NCBI RefSeq assembly: GCF_022869865.1
Contig: NZ_CP094984.1
Span: forward strand, 496,001-560,000
From: Arthrobacter zhangbolii
GTDB taxonomy: Bacteria; Actinomycetota; Actinomycetes; Actinomycetales; Micrococcaceae
Direction: 5' to 3'
DNA: 64,000 nucleotides
Shown: positions 29,837 to 51,549 of the stretch, piece by piece
How the letters are laid out: every line of letters begins with the position of its first letter
How positions within the stretch are numbered: the first letter of the stretch is position 1
Position numbers and translations under genes: made by a program
Notes under the pieces: model-generated
The model's database searches: none
Told to the model about the DNA's origin: nothing
What the model saw: only the letters and a program-made list of their open reading frames with translations

Positions 29837-29906
29837 AGAAAAGTTGCTCCGGAGCGACGCAGAGCTTAGATCTTCGCAGATCAGCCTGCCGGTGCCGGAA
29901 GCAGTC

Positions 29907-29935
29907 TGTTGTTTGAGAACTCAATAGTGTGCCAA
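29907..29935 (+). promoter_or_regulatory. Pre-16S processing stem, 5' strand (operon 1)
   Basis: This segment is largely complementary to 31827-31855 downstream of 16S (TTGGCACACTGTTG side), bringing the two ends of pre-16S together for RNase III. It contains the TTTGAGAACTCAATAGTGTG element common in actinobacterial rRNA leaders. Confidence 0.75.
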
Positions 29936-30083
29936 GTTTATTGATACCAATTTATTTTGATTGGTTGAATCGACCGTGTCCGCCCACCCCGTGGGTATGG
30001 AACGGTTTTTTTAGCCGGTTTCGAATTTAGTGCAGTGCCTGGCGGCCAATTTTCCTTGGCCCCGGCATTGTGTCTGTAAAACA

Positions 30084-35292
<5,209 letters not shown>

Positions 35293-35515
35293 ACCAACAT
35301 CTGGGGAAACACGACTTCAAACGGTTTCCCAACGTACAGGGTGTTGTTGATCATGCTGCTTGCGTCCACTATGTGGTTCCCGGATAACAACCCTGGTTGT
35401 TGACCGTGGAACAAAAATTGAATATCACTTCGTCTAACGACGTTCGTGACCCAATGTTTTCCCCTCTGCACACCCGGTTTTTTGGCCGGTGTTTGTGCGG
35501 GTGCGGGTAGTAGGG

Positions 35516-35632
35516 TTACGGCGGTCATAGCGTGGGGGAAACGCCCGGTCCCATTCCGAACCCGGAAGCTAAGACCCACAGCGCCGATGGTACTGCATCC
35601 GGGAGGATGTGGGAGAGTAGGTCACCGCCGGA
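35516..35632 (+). rRNA. rrf: 5S ribosomal RNA, operon 1
   Basis: TTACGGCGGTCATAGCG pairs at its start with CACCGCCGGA at the end; the central CCCATTCCGAACCCGGAAG and GATGGTACTGC are the standard 5S signatures. Length is about 117 nt. Confidence 0.95.
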
Positions 35633-35644
35633 CAAATTGTGAAG

Positions 35645-35685
35645 GGTGAGGCCCGTACCAGTGTTGGTACGGGCCTCACCTGTTT
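35645..35685 (+). terminator. Terminator of rRNA operon 1
   Basis: A 16-bp perfect stem (GGTGAGGCCCGTACCA and its complement, loop GTGT) is followed by TGTTTAA, 13 nt after 5S. Confidence 0.92.
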
Positions 35686-35697
35686 AACCCCCACCAG

Positions 35698-36061
35698 GGA
35701 TGCCGGTGCTGCCGGCTGCGCCGGCGGTTGGACGGCCTGGCTCCGGGGGGCACGGTCACGCAGGGTGTCCGGCTCTGGTGCGCAAGATCACGACTGCGCA
35801 AAATCACGACCCGCCGGCGCCGCCCCGTTGTCTTCCCCGCCCCTGCGAATTGCCTAGCTGCGGCGGCACACCGTCCTGGATGGGCTGTTGAGCACTCCGT
35901 GCTGTTCAGCACAAGGGGTCAGGGCGAAATGTGTGTCCAGACAGGCACGAGTCGGCTCCTACCCTTACATCTCATCCATCCCGCCTATAGCCTCTCGAAC
36001 CTCAGGGTGATGTGCGTTCCATGCAGCCCTTCCGGTGAGCTTGAGAGAGGATCCAGGACTT
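35698..36061. other. Gap between rRNA operon 1 and the surface-protein gene
   Basis: About 360 bp without a convincing gene. It starts where similarity to the downstream flank of the other rRNA operon is lost. It contains a GTGCTG-TT-CAGCAC palindrome near 35898 and a possible -10 TATAGC at 35986 for the surface-protein gene, with no good -35. Open frames here lack ribosome binding sites and recognisable products. Confidence 0.5.
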
Positions 36062-38128
36062 ATGAGTCGAAGAAGAGCACTTGCGCCTACCGTGGGGGGA
36101 CGGGGGAGGATACGCCGCCGCTTCGGCTATTCGCTCGGCCTTTTGGGCACACTGGTTGTATTTTTACTCTCGACGGTTGCACCGGCTCAGGCAGTGTTTT
36201 CGGGACCACAGCCGGGAGGCGCAGTTCCCAATGCCGAGGTCGAGGTCACGATGACGGGTACCGGGCCGGGGCAAGGCGTGACGGGCGGCCTTCCGCCGGT
36301 AGGCCAGGGGTTTGATCCAACTGCCGGCTACCCGGAGGATGTTCCTCTTGGATATGACCCTGCTAACGAAGGGTTCGCCGGCGTCATCACAACAGTGGAT
36401 GGCGAGGGCAATACCCAGCAGATGTATTGCATCGACATCCGTGTCCTCACCTATGAGGGACTTGGCTATGAAAACGGCAGCTGGGATGAGTCCAACGTCC
36501 CTAACATCGGCTACGTCAACCGTGTGCTGAACAGCTACTATCCGGATCAGCCGGGACTTCCGGAAGCCGCGAACGACAACATCAGGGCAGCGGCCGTGCA
36601 GGCAGCCGTATGGTTCTTCAGCGACGGTTACGTGCTTCAGGACACCGATCCCGTCCGTCCGCTGACCGCGCAGATTGTCGCCGATGTCCTGGCCGCGGGA
36701 CCGCTTACCGAACCTCCCGCTCCGGATGTCGGCATTACGCCCCCCGTAGCTGCAGGTCCCGTGGACGGAGTAGCGGGCCCTTTCACGATCACGTCCGGCG
36801 CGGTCGCGGAGCTCACCGTCGGTGTCACCCCGGGATACACCCTCTACACTGACGCGGCCGGAACTGTTCCGCTGGTGGGGACTACTGTCCCGGCCGGTAC
36901 GCAGCTGTGGGTACGGAACACTGCGCAGACAACCGATCCGGCTGAGCTTACGGCCACGGCAGTAGTCCCCGTGCAGACGGGAAACGTCTACCTCTACGCA
37001 GGTAGCAACCCTCAGGTCACGGAGGCACAGAAACTCATTCTGGCGGCTGATTCCCAAATCGAATCCAACGCGCAGGCCACGGCGGAGTTCTTCATTCCGG
37101 GCGACCTGGTGGTCAATAAGACCTTCGCCGGTGAAGGTGCCGGACTGCAGGGAGCTATTACCTTGAACGTTGCCTGCGGGGCAGCGGGGACTTTCGTCAT
37201 AGACATCCCGGCCGGTACCGCAGCAGGGGTATCCCAGACCATTTCAGACCTGCCCGTAGGCACGGTCTGTGAGGTGAGTGAGCCGGTGACGGGATCAAAC
37301 ACGCAAGTCACTGTCACACCGGTTCTGCCGGGACCGGTCACTGTCACCGCCGACGGGCCGAACGTGCTCGACGTCGCCAACACAGTGGACCTCAATCCGG
37401 GTTCCCTGACCGTGGTGAAGTCCCTGACGGGTGCTGCGGCCGGCCTGCAGGGCGACATCACGGTGATAGTGACCTGTGAGGATGCGGGTATCGAAGAAAC
37501 CCTCACCATTCCGGCAGGCAGTGCCGCAGGCGATTATGCGGGAACCATCACCGATATTCCTGCGGGCACTGCGTGCACGGTCACGGAACCACAAACCGGA
37601 GCTACCGACCTGGTGGCGGTGACTACAGGACTTCCGGAGGTGGTTGAGATTCAGCCGGGCGCCGATTCCCAGGCATTGGTTACCAATGACGTGTCCTACA
37701 TCTACGGTTCACTCGTGCTGACCAAAACCATCACAGGCCCCGGGGCCGGCCTCCAAAGCGACGTGCGAATTGTCCTCACCTGTGGGGACTCATTCACCGA
37801 GGAGATCCTCATTCCGGCGGGAACGGTGGCCGGTGACCAGATCAGGGTGTTCGACCGCGTGCCGGCCGGCAGCTCCTGTACAGTCACCGAACCAGCCACT
37901 GGCGCTAATTCGTCGGTGACGGTGGACGCGGTACTCCCGGAAGCCGTCACGGTCCTCGGCGGAGAATCCGTCAACGCGGAGGTCACAAACACCTACTCCG
38001 TACTGGGCAAGGACAAGCTTGCGGAGACCGGTGCAAACGGCCTCAGCTCGGTGTGGACTGCCAGCCTCTGCATCCTGGCTCTTGGCACCTTCCTCGTTAT
38101 CGTTTCGGTTCGGCGGCGCACTTCATAG
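36062..38128 (+). CDS. Thioester-domain (TQXA) surface adhesin with three DUF5979 repeats and LAETG sortase signal
   Basis: The 688-residue product is predicted to be exported and covalently fixed to the cell wall. Residues 1-44 are a long signal peptide ending APAQA. Residues about 80-200 form a TQXA thioester domain: C123 in MYCIDI and Q180 in AAVQAAVWFFSDG are the expected partners of the internal Cys-Gln thioester that lets such adhesins bind host or surface amines. Three Ig-like DUF5979 repeats begin near residues 347, 447 and 549 (each with LxVxKxxTGxxAGLQ, a Cys pair, IPAGTxAG and CxVxEPxTGA). The C-terminus has LAETG (653-657), a hydrophobic segment and RRR: a class-E-type sortase signal. 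ATG 36062 has CCAGGA 4 nt upstream. It stands alone between two rRNA operons; no sortase gene is adjacent. Confidence 0.88.
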   Translation: MSRRRALAPTVGGRGRIRRRFGYSLGLLGTLVVFLLSTVAPAQAVFSGPQPGGAVPNAEVEVTMTGTGPGQGVTGGLPPVGQGFDPTAGYPEDVPLGYDPANEGFAGVITTVDGEGNTQQMYCIDIRVLTYEGLGYENGSWDESNVPNIGYVNRVLNSYYPDQPGLPEAANDNIRAAAVQAAVWFFSDGYVLQDTDPVRPLTAQIVADVLAAGPLTEPPAPDVGITPPVAAGPVDGVAGPFTITSGAVAELTVGVTPGYTLYTDAAGTVPLVGTTVPAGTQLWVRNTAQTTDPAELTATAVVPVQTGNVYLYAGSNPQVTEAQKLILAADSQIESNAQATAEFFIPGDLVVNKTFAGEGAGLQGAITLNVACGAAGTFVIDIPAGTAAGVSQTISDLPVGTVCEVSEPVTGSNTQVTVTPVLPGPVTVTADGPNVLDVANTVDLNPGSLTVVKSLTGAAAGLQGDITVIVTCEDAGIEETLTIPAGSAAGDYAGTITDIPAGTACTVTEPQTGATDLVAVTTGLPEVVEIQPGADSQALVTNDVSYIYGSLVLTKTITGPGAGLQSDVRIVLTCGDSFTEEILIPAGTVAGDQIRVFDRVPAGSSCTVTEPATGANSSVTVDAVLPEAVTVLGGESVNAEVTNTYSVLGKDKLAETGANGLSSVWTASLCILALGTFLVIVSVRRRTS

Positions 38129-38502
38129 CGCAACCCGCTGATTGAAACACCAGGGCCGCCCGTAGCTCCTAGCCGGAGCTACGGGCGGTTCTGCGTCCGA
38201 AGAGGATGCCGGTCTCCGCACGACGGACAACGCGCAGAAGCGGGGCAACCAAGCCAGCCTCAGCGGTTCAACGGGGTCACCAGTTGCCGAGTTGCACGGG
38301 GGCTCGAACCTGTGTAAAGTCTTCTAAGTCGCCGCGGCAGGGACGCTGAAAAAGCGCCCGAGCATGGCGGCCAAACCCCTTCGAAAATCAGAGTCCAACT
38401 CCCGTGCCCTTCACCGGGCCGGCGGAAAAGACTCCGGTTCACGCTGGGTCCGGAACGGCGGTACAAACGCTTTTCACGGGATTCCGACAGGAAAACCGCG
38501 AA
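38129..38502. other. Gap between the surface-protein gene and rRNA operon 2
   Basis: About 370 bp without a convincing gene, apart from the terminator at 38156-38195. The stretch becomes AT-rich towards the operon 2 promoter. Short frames here (for example 38404-38634) run into the rRNA leader and are rejected. Confidence 0.5.
38156..38195 (+). terminator. Terminator of the surface-protein gene
   Basis: CCGCCCGTAGCTCC (38156-38169) and GGAGCTACGGGCGG (38175-38188) form a 14-bp stem with a 5-nt loop followed by TTCTG. Confidence 0.8.
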
Positions 38503-38531: not shown

Positions 38532-38596
38532 AATAAAACATTGCAGCGAAGAAGAAAAGGAAAACATTGTTTTCCCGAGTATTTTCGGATTGCGTC

Positions 38597-38625
38597 TGTT
38601 GTTTGAGAACTCAATAGTGTGCCAA
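38597..38625 (+). promoter_or_regulatory. Pre-16S processing stem, 5' strand (operon 2)
   Basis: Same sequence as 29907-29935; pairs with 40517-40545. Confidence 0.75.
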
Positions 38626-38773
38626 GTTTATTGATACCAATTTATTTTGATTGGTTGAATCGACCGTGTCCGCCCACCCCGTGGGTATGGAACGGTTTTT
38701 TTAGCCGGTTTCGAATTTAGTGCAGTGCCTGGCGGCCAATTTTCCTTGGCCCCGGCATTGTGTCTGTAAAACA

Positions 38774-43981
<5,208 letters not shown>

Positions 43982-44204
43982 ACCAACATCTGGGGAAACA
44001 CGACTTCAAACGGTTTCCCAACGTACAGGGTGTTGTTGATCATGCTGCTTGCGTCCACTATGTGGTTCCCGGATAACAACCCTGGTTGTTGACCGTGGAA
44101 CAAAAATTGAATATCACTTCGTCTAACGACGTTCGTGACCCAATGTTTTCCCCTCTGCACACCCGGTTTTTTGGCCGGTGTTTGTGCGGGTGCGGGTAGT
44201 AGGG

Positions 44205-44321
44205 TTACGGCGGTCATAGCGTGGGGGAAACGCCCGGTCCCATTCCGAACCCGGAAGCTAAGACCCACAGCGCCGATGGTACTGCATCCGGGAGGATGTG
44301 GGAGAGTAGGTCACCGCCGGA
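44205..44321 (+). rRNA. rrf: 5S ribosomal RNA, operon 2
   Basis: Same as the 5S of operon 1, with CCCATTCCGAACCCGGAAG and paired ends. Confidence 0.95.
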
Positions 44322-44333
44322 CAAATTGTGAAG

Positions 44334-44374
44334 GGTGAGGCCCGTACCAGTGTTGGTACGGGCCTCACCTGTTT
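44334..44374 (+). terminator. Terminator of rRNA operon 2
   Basis: The same 16-bp stem as in operon 1, followed by TGTTTAA. Confidence 0.92.
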
Positions 44375-44401
44375 AACCCCCACCAGAGATGCCGGCACCG
44401 G

Positions 44402-50299: not shown

Positions 50300-51388
50300 T
50301 TAGGCCTGTTCGGCCAGCCGGTCGCCGGTGGCGGTGTCGAAGAGGTGCACATGCCCCTTCTGCGGGCGGACGTACAGGACATCGCCCTTCATCGGCGGGC
50401 GGCGGCCGTCCACGCGGACCACCATGTCATGGTGCTTGCCGTCGAGGGTGGTGTGGCCATACACGTACGCGTCGGCGCCGAGCTCCTCCACCACGTCAAC
50501 GTCCACCTGCAGGCCGTCGCCCTCGGAGACGAGCTCCATGTCTTCGGGACGGACACCCAGGGTGACCGTGTTGCCGGCTGCGGCACCAAGCACTGCGCTT
50601 GCCACGGGGTAAACCGAGCCGCCAAATGCGACACCGCCGTCCACTACCGGCAGTTCCAACAGGTTCATGGCGGGGGAACCGATGAAGCCGGCCACGAATA
50701 CGTTCTTCGGGTGGTCGTAGAGGTTCCGCGGGGTGTCCACCTGCTGCAGGATGCCGTCCTTCAGCACTGCCACGCGGTCGCCCATGGTCATGGCCTCGAC
50801 CTGGTCGTGCGTGACGTAAACGGTGGTGACGCCGAGACGGCGGGTGAGGGAGGCGATCTGCGTGCGGGTCTGCACACGGAGCTTGGCATCCAGGTTGGAC
50901 AGCGGCTCATCCATCAGGAACACCTGCGGGTTCCGGACGATGGCGCGGCCCATGGCAACGCGCTGGCGCTGGCCACCGGAGAGGGCCTTGGGCTTGCGAT
51001 CGAGGAAGTCTTCGAGGTCGAGCAGCTTGGCGGCCTCGCGGACGCGTTCCATCCGCTCTTCCTTGCCCACGCCGGCGATCTTCAGGGCGAAGCCCATGTT
51101 GTCCGCCACCGACATGTGCGGGTACAGCGCATAGTTCTGGAAAACCATGGCGATGTCGCGGTCCTTGGGCGGAACGTCGGTGACGTCGCGGTCACCGATC
51201 AGGATCCGGCCGGAGTTGACGTCTTCGAGCCCGGCGAGCATGCGCAGGGAGGTGGATTTTCCGCAGCCGGAGGGGCCAACGAGAACCAGGAACTCGCCGT
51301 CGGCGATTTCGAGGCTGAGGTTATCTACAGCAGGGCGTTCAGTCCCCGGGTAGAGGCGTGTTGCCTGGTCAAACGTTACCGTTGCCAT
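50300..51388 (-). CDS. Sugar ABC transporter ATP-binding protein (UgpC/MsmX/MalK type)
   Basis: The 362-residue ATPase powers uptake of oligosaccharides or related solutes. It has Walker A VGPSGCGKSTSLRML, Q-loop MVFQNYALYPHMSV, signature LSGGQRQRVAMGRAIV, Walker B VFLMDEPLSNLDAKL and H-loop YVTHDQVEAM, followed by a C-terminal TOBE/regulatory domain of about 120 residues (TLGVRPEDMEL), as in MalK and MsmX. No permease or binding protein lies nearby, so it is probably a shared ATPase serving several sugar transporters, as known for MsmX and MsiK. ATG 51388 has AAGGG 8 nt upstream. Confidence 0.93.
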   Translation of the reverse strand: MATVTFDQATRLYPGTERPAVDNLSLEIADGEFLVLVGPSGCGKSTSLRMLAGLEDVNSGRILIGDRDVTDVPPKDRDIAMVFQNYALYPHMSVADNMGFALKIAGVGKEERMERVREAAKLLDLEDFLDRKPKALSGGQRQRVAMGRAIVRNPQVFLMDEPLSNLDAKLRVQTRTQIASLTRRLGVTTVYVTHDQVEAMTMGDRVAVLKDGILQQVDTPRNLYDHPKNVFVAGFIGSPAMNLLELPVVDGGVAFGGSVYPVASAVLGAAAGNTVTLGVRPEDMELVSEGDGLQVDVDVVEELGADAYVYGHTTLDGKHHDMVVRVDGRRPPMKGDVLYVRPQKGHVHLFDTATGDRLAEQA

Positions 51389-51549
51389 GGTATTTCCCTT
51401 CACGGGCAGGTACGTGCCCGACGATCCGTTGTGAATGGAGGTGCTATGTAGTTGTGGGAACCCGCCGCGGCTCAACAGTGAGCTGTGACACGGTTCACGG
51501 AGTCAGTATGGCATACGTTGGCTCCGGCGCCGCGTCCGCATCGGCTGTG

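Follow-up and report, generated by a model that had tools for sequence, protein, structure and literature searches.

Short wall-anchored proteins carrying a Class II thioester domain (TED) in Arthrobacter are probably covalent adhesins encoded on passive cassettes, which homologous recombination at the rRNA (rrn) operons relocates, duplicates, deletes and exchanges. This reading was drawn from the architecture and fold class of the protein encoded in the analysed window, the exclusive rrn neighbourhood of the short TED genes, the existence of filled and empty sites, the duplication of whole rrn operons and the conflict between the TED tree and the loci occupied.

The interval between the rRNA operons

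The window is a stretch of 64,000 nucleotides corresponding to positions 496001-560000 of a single-contig genome of 3.46 Mb with five rrn operons. Two complete operons (16S-23S-5S), both on the + strand, are found in it: operon 1 at 29904-35706, forming the left repeat arm and including the terminator hairpin, and operon 2 at 38594-44395, forming the right repeat arm. The arms are in direct orientation and display 99.97% identity over 5,803 bp, differing by a single mismatch and a single gap. The adhesin gene (36062-38128, + strand) is the sole convincing gene between the two complete operons, and the description given in the first-pass annotation, that of a sole cargo without partner genes between rRNA direct repeats, was borne out.

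The same annotation had credited the gene with its own terminator. A strong hairpin does lie 3' of the gene at 38149-38194 (+ strand; -41 kcal/mol, z of -8), but the U-tract is missing and the hairpin is treated here as a possible terminator. Strong terminator hairpins were also identified 3' of each 5S gene, the one following the upstream 5S gene (-36 kcal/mol) being situated within the repeat arm. Read-through transcription from the upstream rrn operon was considered and found unlikely, since this strong hairpin intervenes. A scan for sigma-70 consensus promoters returned no match; alignment of the upstream regions of ten relatives delineated a conserved block (TCCTACCCTTACA...TATAGCC) at 35957-35999 (+ strand), which may represent the gene's own promoter. 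Further along the window, on the - strand at 51388-51446, an msiK RNA cis-regulatory element was detected (Rfam RF01747, 65.3 bits), for which an ABC ATPase gene would be expected downstream.

Domain organisation and sorting signal

The adhesin ORF encodes 688 residues and was assigned, from the open reading frame, its translation and Pfam matches, as a Class II thioester-domain (TIE-type) wall-anchored protein; its ATG is kept in relatives in the sequence alignment. The chain begins with a predicted signal peptide at approximately residues 1-44 (RRR...LLSTVAPAQA; 36062-36193), followed by the Class II TED at approximately residues 62-343 (36245-37090), which in the AlphaFold2 model includes an Ig-like beta-sandwich insert, by a CnaB-like stalk of three DUF5979 repeats (37094-37999) and by the sorting signal LAETG (residues 653-657; 38018-38032), all on the + strand. 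Pfam locates the TED (PF08341) at residues 121-208 with a score of 37.5 bits against a cut-off of 22, and DUF5979 (PF19407) in three stretches with a score of 126.8 bits against a cut-off of 25. The three DUF5979 repeats originally described are therefore above the Pfam cut-off and were retained. The TQXA domain named alongside them was not, as TIGR03934 (NCBIfam) scored 17.5 bits, under the cut-off of 30.4.

The literature lists DUF5979 among the CnaB-like domains, with an isopeptide triad of Lys, Glu and Asn (PMC12617251). These triads are intact in all three repeats (K353/E407/N440, K453/E509/N542 and K555/E610/N643), each of which also contains one pair of cysteines, and the stalk is described here as three repeats of isopeptide type with predicted bonds. 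When either the whole protein or the stalk was searched against PDB sequences with phmmer, no significant match was obtained.

The LAETG anchor was upheld, the motif being followed by a hydrophobic segment/TM and an RRR tail (RRRTS). A profile search identified sortases elsewhere in the genome, namely one of class E (246.8 bits) and two class F-like, such that LAETG, hydrophobic segment, basic tail and a genomic sortase are all present. LAxTG is the motif favoured by class E sortases, and the LAETG signal would be anchored by the housekeeping class E sortase. The sorting signals of the short TED proteins differ among orthologues, with LAETG or LAKTG in the genome of the window (G000), G003, G007 and G025, and LPKTG or LPRTG in most others.

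Predicted thioester residues and fold class

In solved TEDs the cysteine is found in a [YFL]CΦζ motif and the partner glutamine in a late-strand ΦQζΦΦ motif, the glutamine of the TQxxΦW helix being dispensable for the thioester bond (PMC4450167, PMC6194298). The first-pass annotation had paired C123 with Q180, and the cysteine alone was kept. C123 (codon 36428-36430, + strand) lies in YCID, which fits the published cysteine motif (PMC4450167), and is invariant in relatives, being present in 31 of the 31 aligned sequences that cover the position. Q180 (codon 36599-36601, + strand) and Q323 (codon 37028-37030, + strand) are both conserved in 32 of 32 aligned sequences. However, Q180 is part of VQAAVW, a helix motif of the TQxxΦW type (PMC4450167, PMC6194298), whereas Q323 is part of AQKLI, which fits ΦQζΦΦ; Q180 was ruled out as the thioester glutamine by the published motif definitions together with the conservation of Q323. 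Judged from the sequence, the most likely partner of C123 is Q323, a pairing that gives a Class II TED with a predicted thioester bond. The spacing of 200 residues between the two is as in the three solved Class II TEDs, BaTIE of Bacillus anthracis, SaTIE of Staphylococcus aureus and EfmTIE86 of Enterococcus faecium (195, 171 and 204, respectively; PMC6194298), and the 30 residues separating Q323 from K353, the first lysine of the stalk, match the 31 of BaTIE (Q266-K297).

An AlphaFold2 model of residues 45-345 (pLDDT 85.5) places Q323 just ahead of the last strand, and the strands that follow the helices and precede the last hairpin correspond to the beta-sandwich insert of Class II TEDs. Foldseek at E<1e-3 retrieved Class II TEDs only (6fwy, 6fwv and 6fx6), with a best value of 6.8e-10. 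With VIA, 6fwv matched at Z 14.3, and Class I TEDs matched at about 10-13 over the lobe common to both; the global rmsd of the model match is high (~7 Å), so the relative placement of the lobes is uncertain. Sequence and fold thus lend good support to the sortase-anchored thioester adhesin first proposed, with the amendment that the pair is C123/Q323 and the domain belongs to Class II.

With BaTIE, SaTIE and EfmTIE86 the window protein has in common an N-terminal Class II TED with its beta-sandwich insert, CnaB-type stalk repeats and a sortase signal, but identity is only ~11-17% and the window protein differs in its DUF5979 stalk with cysteine pairs and its actinobacterial LAETG. With SfbI and FbaB of Streptococcus pyogenes (PMC4450167) it shares the predicted thioester chemistry and the wall-anchored TIE layout, whereas these proteins display the Class I fold, which lacks the beta-sandwich insert. 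The Class I adhesins SfbI and FbaB have been shown to attach covalently to a lysine of fibrinogen (PMC4450167). For the window protein, the thioester itself and covalent binding are predictions: the tip thioester C123-Q323 would react with a surface amine (Lys) to form a covalent bond.

Distribution of the TED genes

The genus sample consisted of 29 genomes, one per species, of which 14 were closed or nearly closed (one or two contigs; referred to as complete) and 15 were drafts or not closed. The clade concerned is that of A. citreus/luteolus/gandavensis/koreensis, and named relatives of the TED protein come from Arthrobacter citreus, luteolus, gandavensis, koreensis, gallicola, pullicola, yangruifuii and zhaoxinii, among others. 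The isolation sources recorded for the clade are mixed (animals, humans, air, water and solar panels/dry surfaces), so no environmental label was applied to the strain.

Homologues were found in all 29 genomes and take two forms, a long paralogue of about 1,000-1,800 aa, frequently located around 1.2 Mb, and a short form of ~520-730 aa. In the 14 complete genomes all 22 short TED genes adjoin an rrn operon, beside the 16S start, and in 17 of the 18 tandem rrn pairs one or two TED genes lie between the operons, the cargo being almost always downstream of 5S and upstream of 16S. The long paralogue, near-core in the genus, is at least 26 kb away from any rrn operon in 14 of 14. The position called isolated and unusual at first is therefore so within this window, but adjoining rrn is a genus-wide property of the short TED genes. 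The long paralogue and the relatives in Cellulomonas, Microbacterium and Herbiconiux have the same TED, 45-57% identical, with DUF5979 in the genus.

The single tandem rrn pair of the 18 without a TED gene is at locus A of G016 (L066 12500-14850); its interval contains an apparent glyoxalase/VOC-type gene on the minus strand. Two other exceptions were noted, G014, with TED genes lacking a second rrn operon, and the draft G005, without rRNA in 20 kb. The short form is often missing in drafts, as expected because the 5.8-kb repeats break assembly, and two drafts keep rrn-TED joins on 8-kb rrn contigs. The closest homologue of the window gene, at locus B of G016 (L040 9567-11722), is 90% identical and frameshifted; the adhesin may have been lost or switched there, or the frameshift may be an assembly error. 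A second TED-DUF5979 protein is encoded in the genome of the window (L036; G000:C1:1213812-1217650) by a 1,278-aa frame with an LPSTG signal, and this protein occurs in nearly the whole genus, away from rrn, with relatives in Cellulomonas and Microbacterium.

Matches to P0001 were obtained in 17 of 17 genus members, and among 228 other family members one weak DUF5979 match only was recorded. No rRNA was detected by the TED loci of other genera of the order (0 of ~25 loci with about 1.5 kb flanks), and no plasmid-borne relative was present among 72,556 plasmids. Of the Cellulomonas, Microbacterium and Herbiconiux loci, that of Microbacterium fluvii is the only one with an rrn operon near the TED gene (L124 419-5682), ~4 kb upstream and on the opposite strand, probably by chance.

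Filled and empty rrn loci

The rrn loci were matched across species by their syntenic outer flanks as loci A, B and D, locus A representing the recR-dnaX side and locus B the glgB side, with SRPBCC and FAD oxidase genes opposite. At locus B, a TED gene is located between tandem rRNA operons beside glgB in 14 of 14 complete genomes. A fixed core gene with ordinary neighbours, the outcome that the first-pass annotation had set against its own reading, was thus found in part: the gene is close to fixed at locus B, but its neighbours are rrn operons and never ordinary. Locus D is occupied in G010 and G019, with the arrangement rrn-TED-rrn; G000, G001, G022, G025 and G028 have a lone rrn operon there. 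Locus A carries rrn-TED-TED-rrn in G028 and TED-rrn in G001, and consists of a lone rrn operon in G000, G010, G019, G021 and G025.

Alignment of the filled locus D of G010 to the empty locus D of G022 produced two overlapping matches, in which the left flank with the first rrn operon and the second rrn operon with the right flank both map to the same 6.1-kb rrn block of G022. The same pattern of a duplicated rrn operon was observed for locus A of G028 against those of G010 and G021, and for locus D of G019 against that of G025. By these alignments at loci A and D, a filled site is an empty site plus one rrn-TED unit, the structure that would be expected if an rrn-TED unit, circular or duplicated, had undergone one crossover with the resident rrn operon. 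In the clade of G010, G017, G021, G022 and G028, the number of rrn operons is six in the two members where a further locus is filled, and five in the remaining members. Between species, the occupied and vacant sites at loci A and D thereby support gain or loss of cargo by rrn recombination; in this sample of one genome per species, neither an excision circle nor a change in copy number nor polymorphism within a species was observed. Ancestral tandem cassettes at several loci, followed by many collapses, would also fit these observations, but this scenario too requires rrn recombination.

At locus C of G019, a 5S remnant and downstream sequence (91.7% over 169 bp) precede the TED gene, and the remnant is taken to be the trace of a lost upstream rrn operon. 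No upstream rrn remnant was detected at locus A of G001 or in G015, where the TED gene adjoins rrn, and single-rrn sites contained no TED traces except shared sequence after 5S. In many species an extra 5S gene was found 0.3-1.1 kb downstream of the locus-A operon (L065 14218-14334; L044, L067, L069, L047 and L080).

Phylogeny of the TEDs

In the TED tree the short forms fall mainly into two deep groups, both of them represented at locus B and at other loci, and a single clade for the locus-B TEDs was rejected by the AU test (log-likelihood difference of 754, p = 8.9e-35). The two-gene cassette at locus B of G022 is colinear with the one at a different locus, locus A, of G028 (82% DNA identity), and locus B of G028 itself resembles locus B of the distant G019. 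The TED usually diverges faster than glgB, as in G021-G022 (83.5 vs 96.5%). However, it is closer than glgB in two pairs, locus A of G001 with locus B of G007 (85.0 vs 81.6) and locus B of G019 with locus B of G028 (86.5 vs 84.8), which suggests that adhesins have been exchanged between species. Distinct TED subtypes lie side by side in G017, G022 and G028, and differential loss from such arrangements could explain part of the tree conflict.

These results bear on one alternative, an ordinary inherited gene whose location at a single rrn locus in the genus ancestor was a matter of chance and whose position is without meaning. Most cases do share ancestry, locus B being filled in every complete genome, but this explanation is unlikely given that TED genes are also beside rrn at A, C and D in some species, that sister species have empty single-rrn sites at A and D, and that the locus-B TEDs are not one clade. 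Selection for the rrn neighbourhood itself, through expression or replication-linked dosage and with movement secondary, is rated equally improbable. The link to rrn persists genus-wide while the long paralogue does not need rrn elsewhere, and loci A and B are within the first 0.6 Mb of most assemblies; however, locus D lies elsewhere, the terminator hairpin of -36 kcal/mol after the upstream 5S gene makes read-through unlikely, and the adhesin gene is preceded by a conserved block of its own.

A site-specific mobile element targeting the region 3' of 5S genes, with the TED gene as its cargo, would account for the nearly constant placement between an upstream 5S and a downstream 16S, but is very improbable, as the intervals inspected contain no integrase or transposase ORF, filled sites also gain a whole rrn operon, unlike site-specific insertion, and the plasmid search gave no match. 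Least credible of all is an assembly artefact in which rrn copies were misjoined around the gene: short reads cope poorly with repeats of 5.8 kb, and the sample of 29 includes 15 draft or unclosed genomes, but the 14 genomes of one or two contigs share the locus-B arrangement around cargo that has diverged, the filled loci differ between species and draft contigs of 8 kb retain the rrn-TED joins.

Discussion

The preferred reading remains that of adhesin cassettes moved by rrn recombination. The rrn copies are near-identical direct repeats, and thus ordinary homologous recombination can act on the rrn-TED unit. Recombination between rrn copies would excise, delete or duplicate the unit, and one crossover would insert it into any other rrn operon, leaving rrn-TED-rrn at the new place. 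One cassette would have been kept beside glgB at locus B and others placed at further rrn loci, with adhesin subtypes mixed between loci and probably between species. Both the circle and crossover route and present-day variation in copy number or on/off state are what we infer from these structures. The short TED genes are almost only at rrn, but at different rrn sites per species, which suggests that it is the rrn repeats that relocate, duplicate and exchange adhesin genes. A more far-reaching form of this reading can be put forward tentatively, as a possibility on the doubtful side: the rrn operons would constitute a living exchange platform for covalent adhesins, in which circles excise and re-insert into any rrn copy, adhesin number and type change reversibly and DNA of related species enters via rrn homology, all without a dedicated recombinase.

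The closest precedent for the setting is the bacitracin resistance cluster flanked by rrn operons (rrnG-rrnH) in the Bacillus cereus group, where crossing-over between rrn operons deletes the cluster and could amplify it (PMC6208641). Both cases represent cargo between direct rrn repeats that is conserved across a species group. However, the cluster is a multi-gene resistance cargo at one locus, for which deletion has been seen, whereas the adhesin cargo is a single gene that occupies several rrn loci, its subtypes being shuffled and some of the sites empty. A search of the open literature found no adhesins between rrn operons or in Arthrobacter, and no cassette of one adhesin gene that occurs at several rrn loci and whose subtypes are shuffled, which is not proof of absence.

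Bacteria with multiple rrn operons carry long identical repeats that are usually viewed as a source of damage and large rearrangements. If the cassette reading is true, the rrn operons would also be a homology-driven cassette site for surface variation, with adhesin genes at changing rrn loci. This cassette habit would explain why adhesin genes vanish from draft assemblies, the rrn repeats breaking assembly, and Class II thioester adhesins, structurally known from Firmicutes pathogens, would be extended to a little-studied actinobacterial clade.
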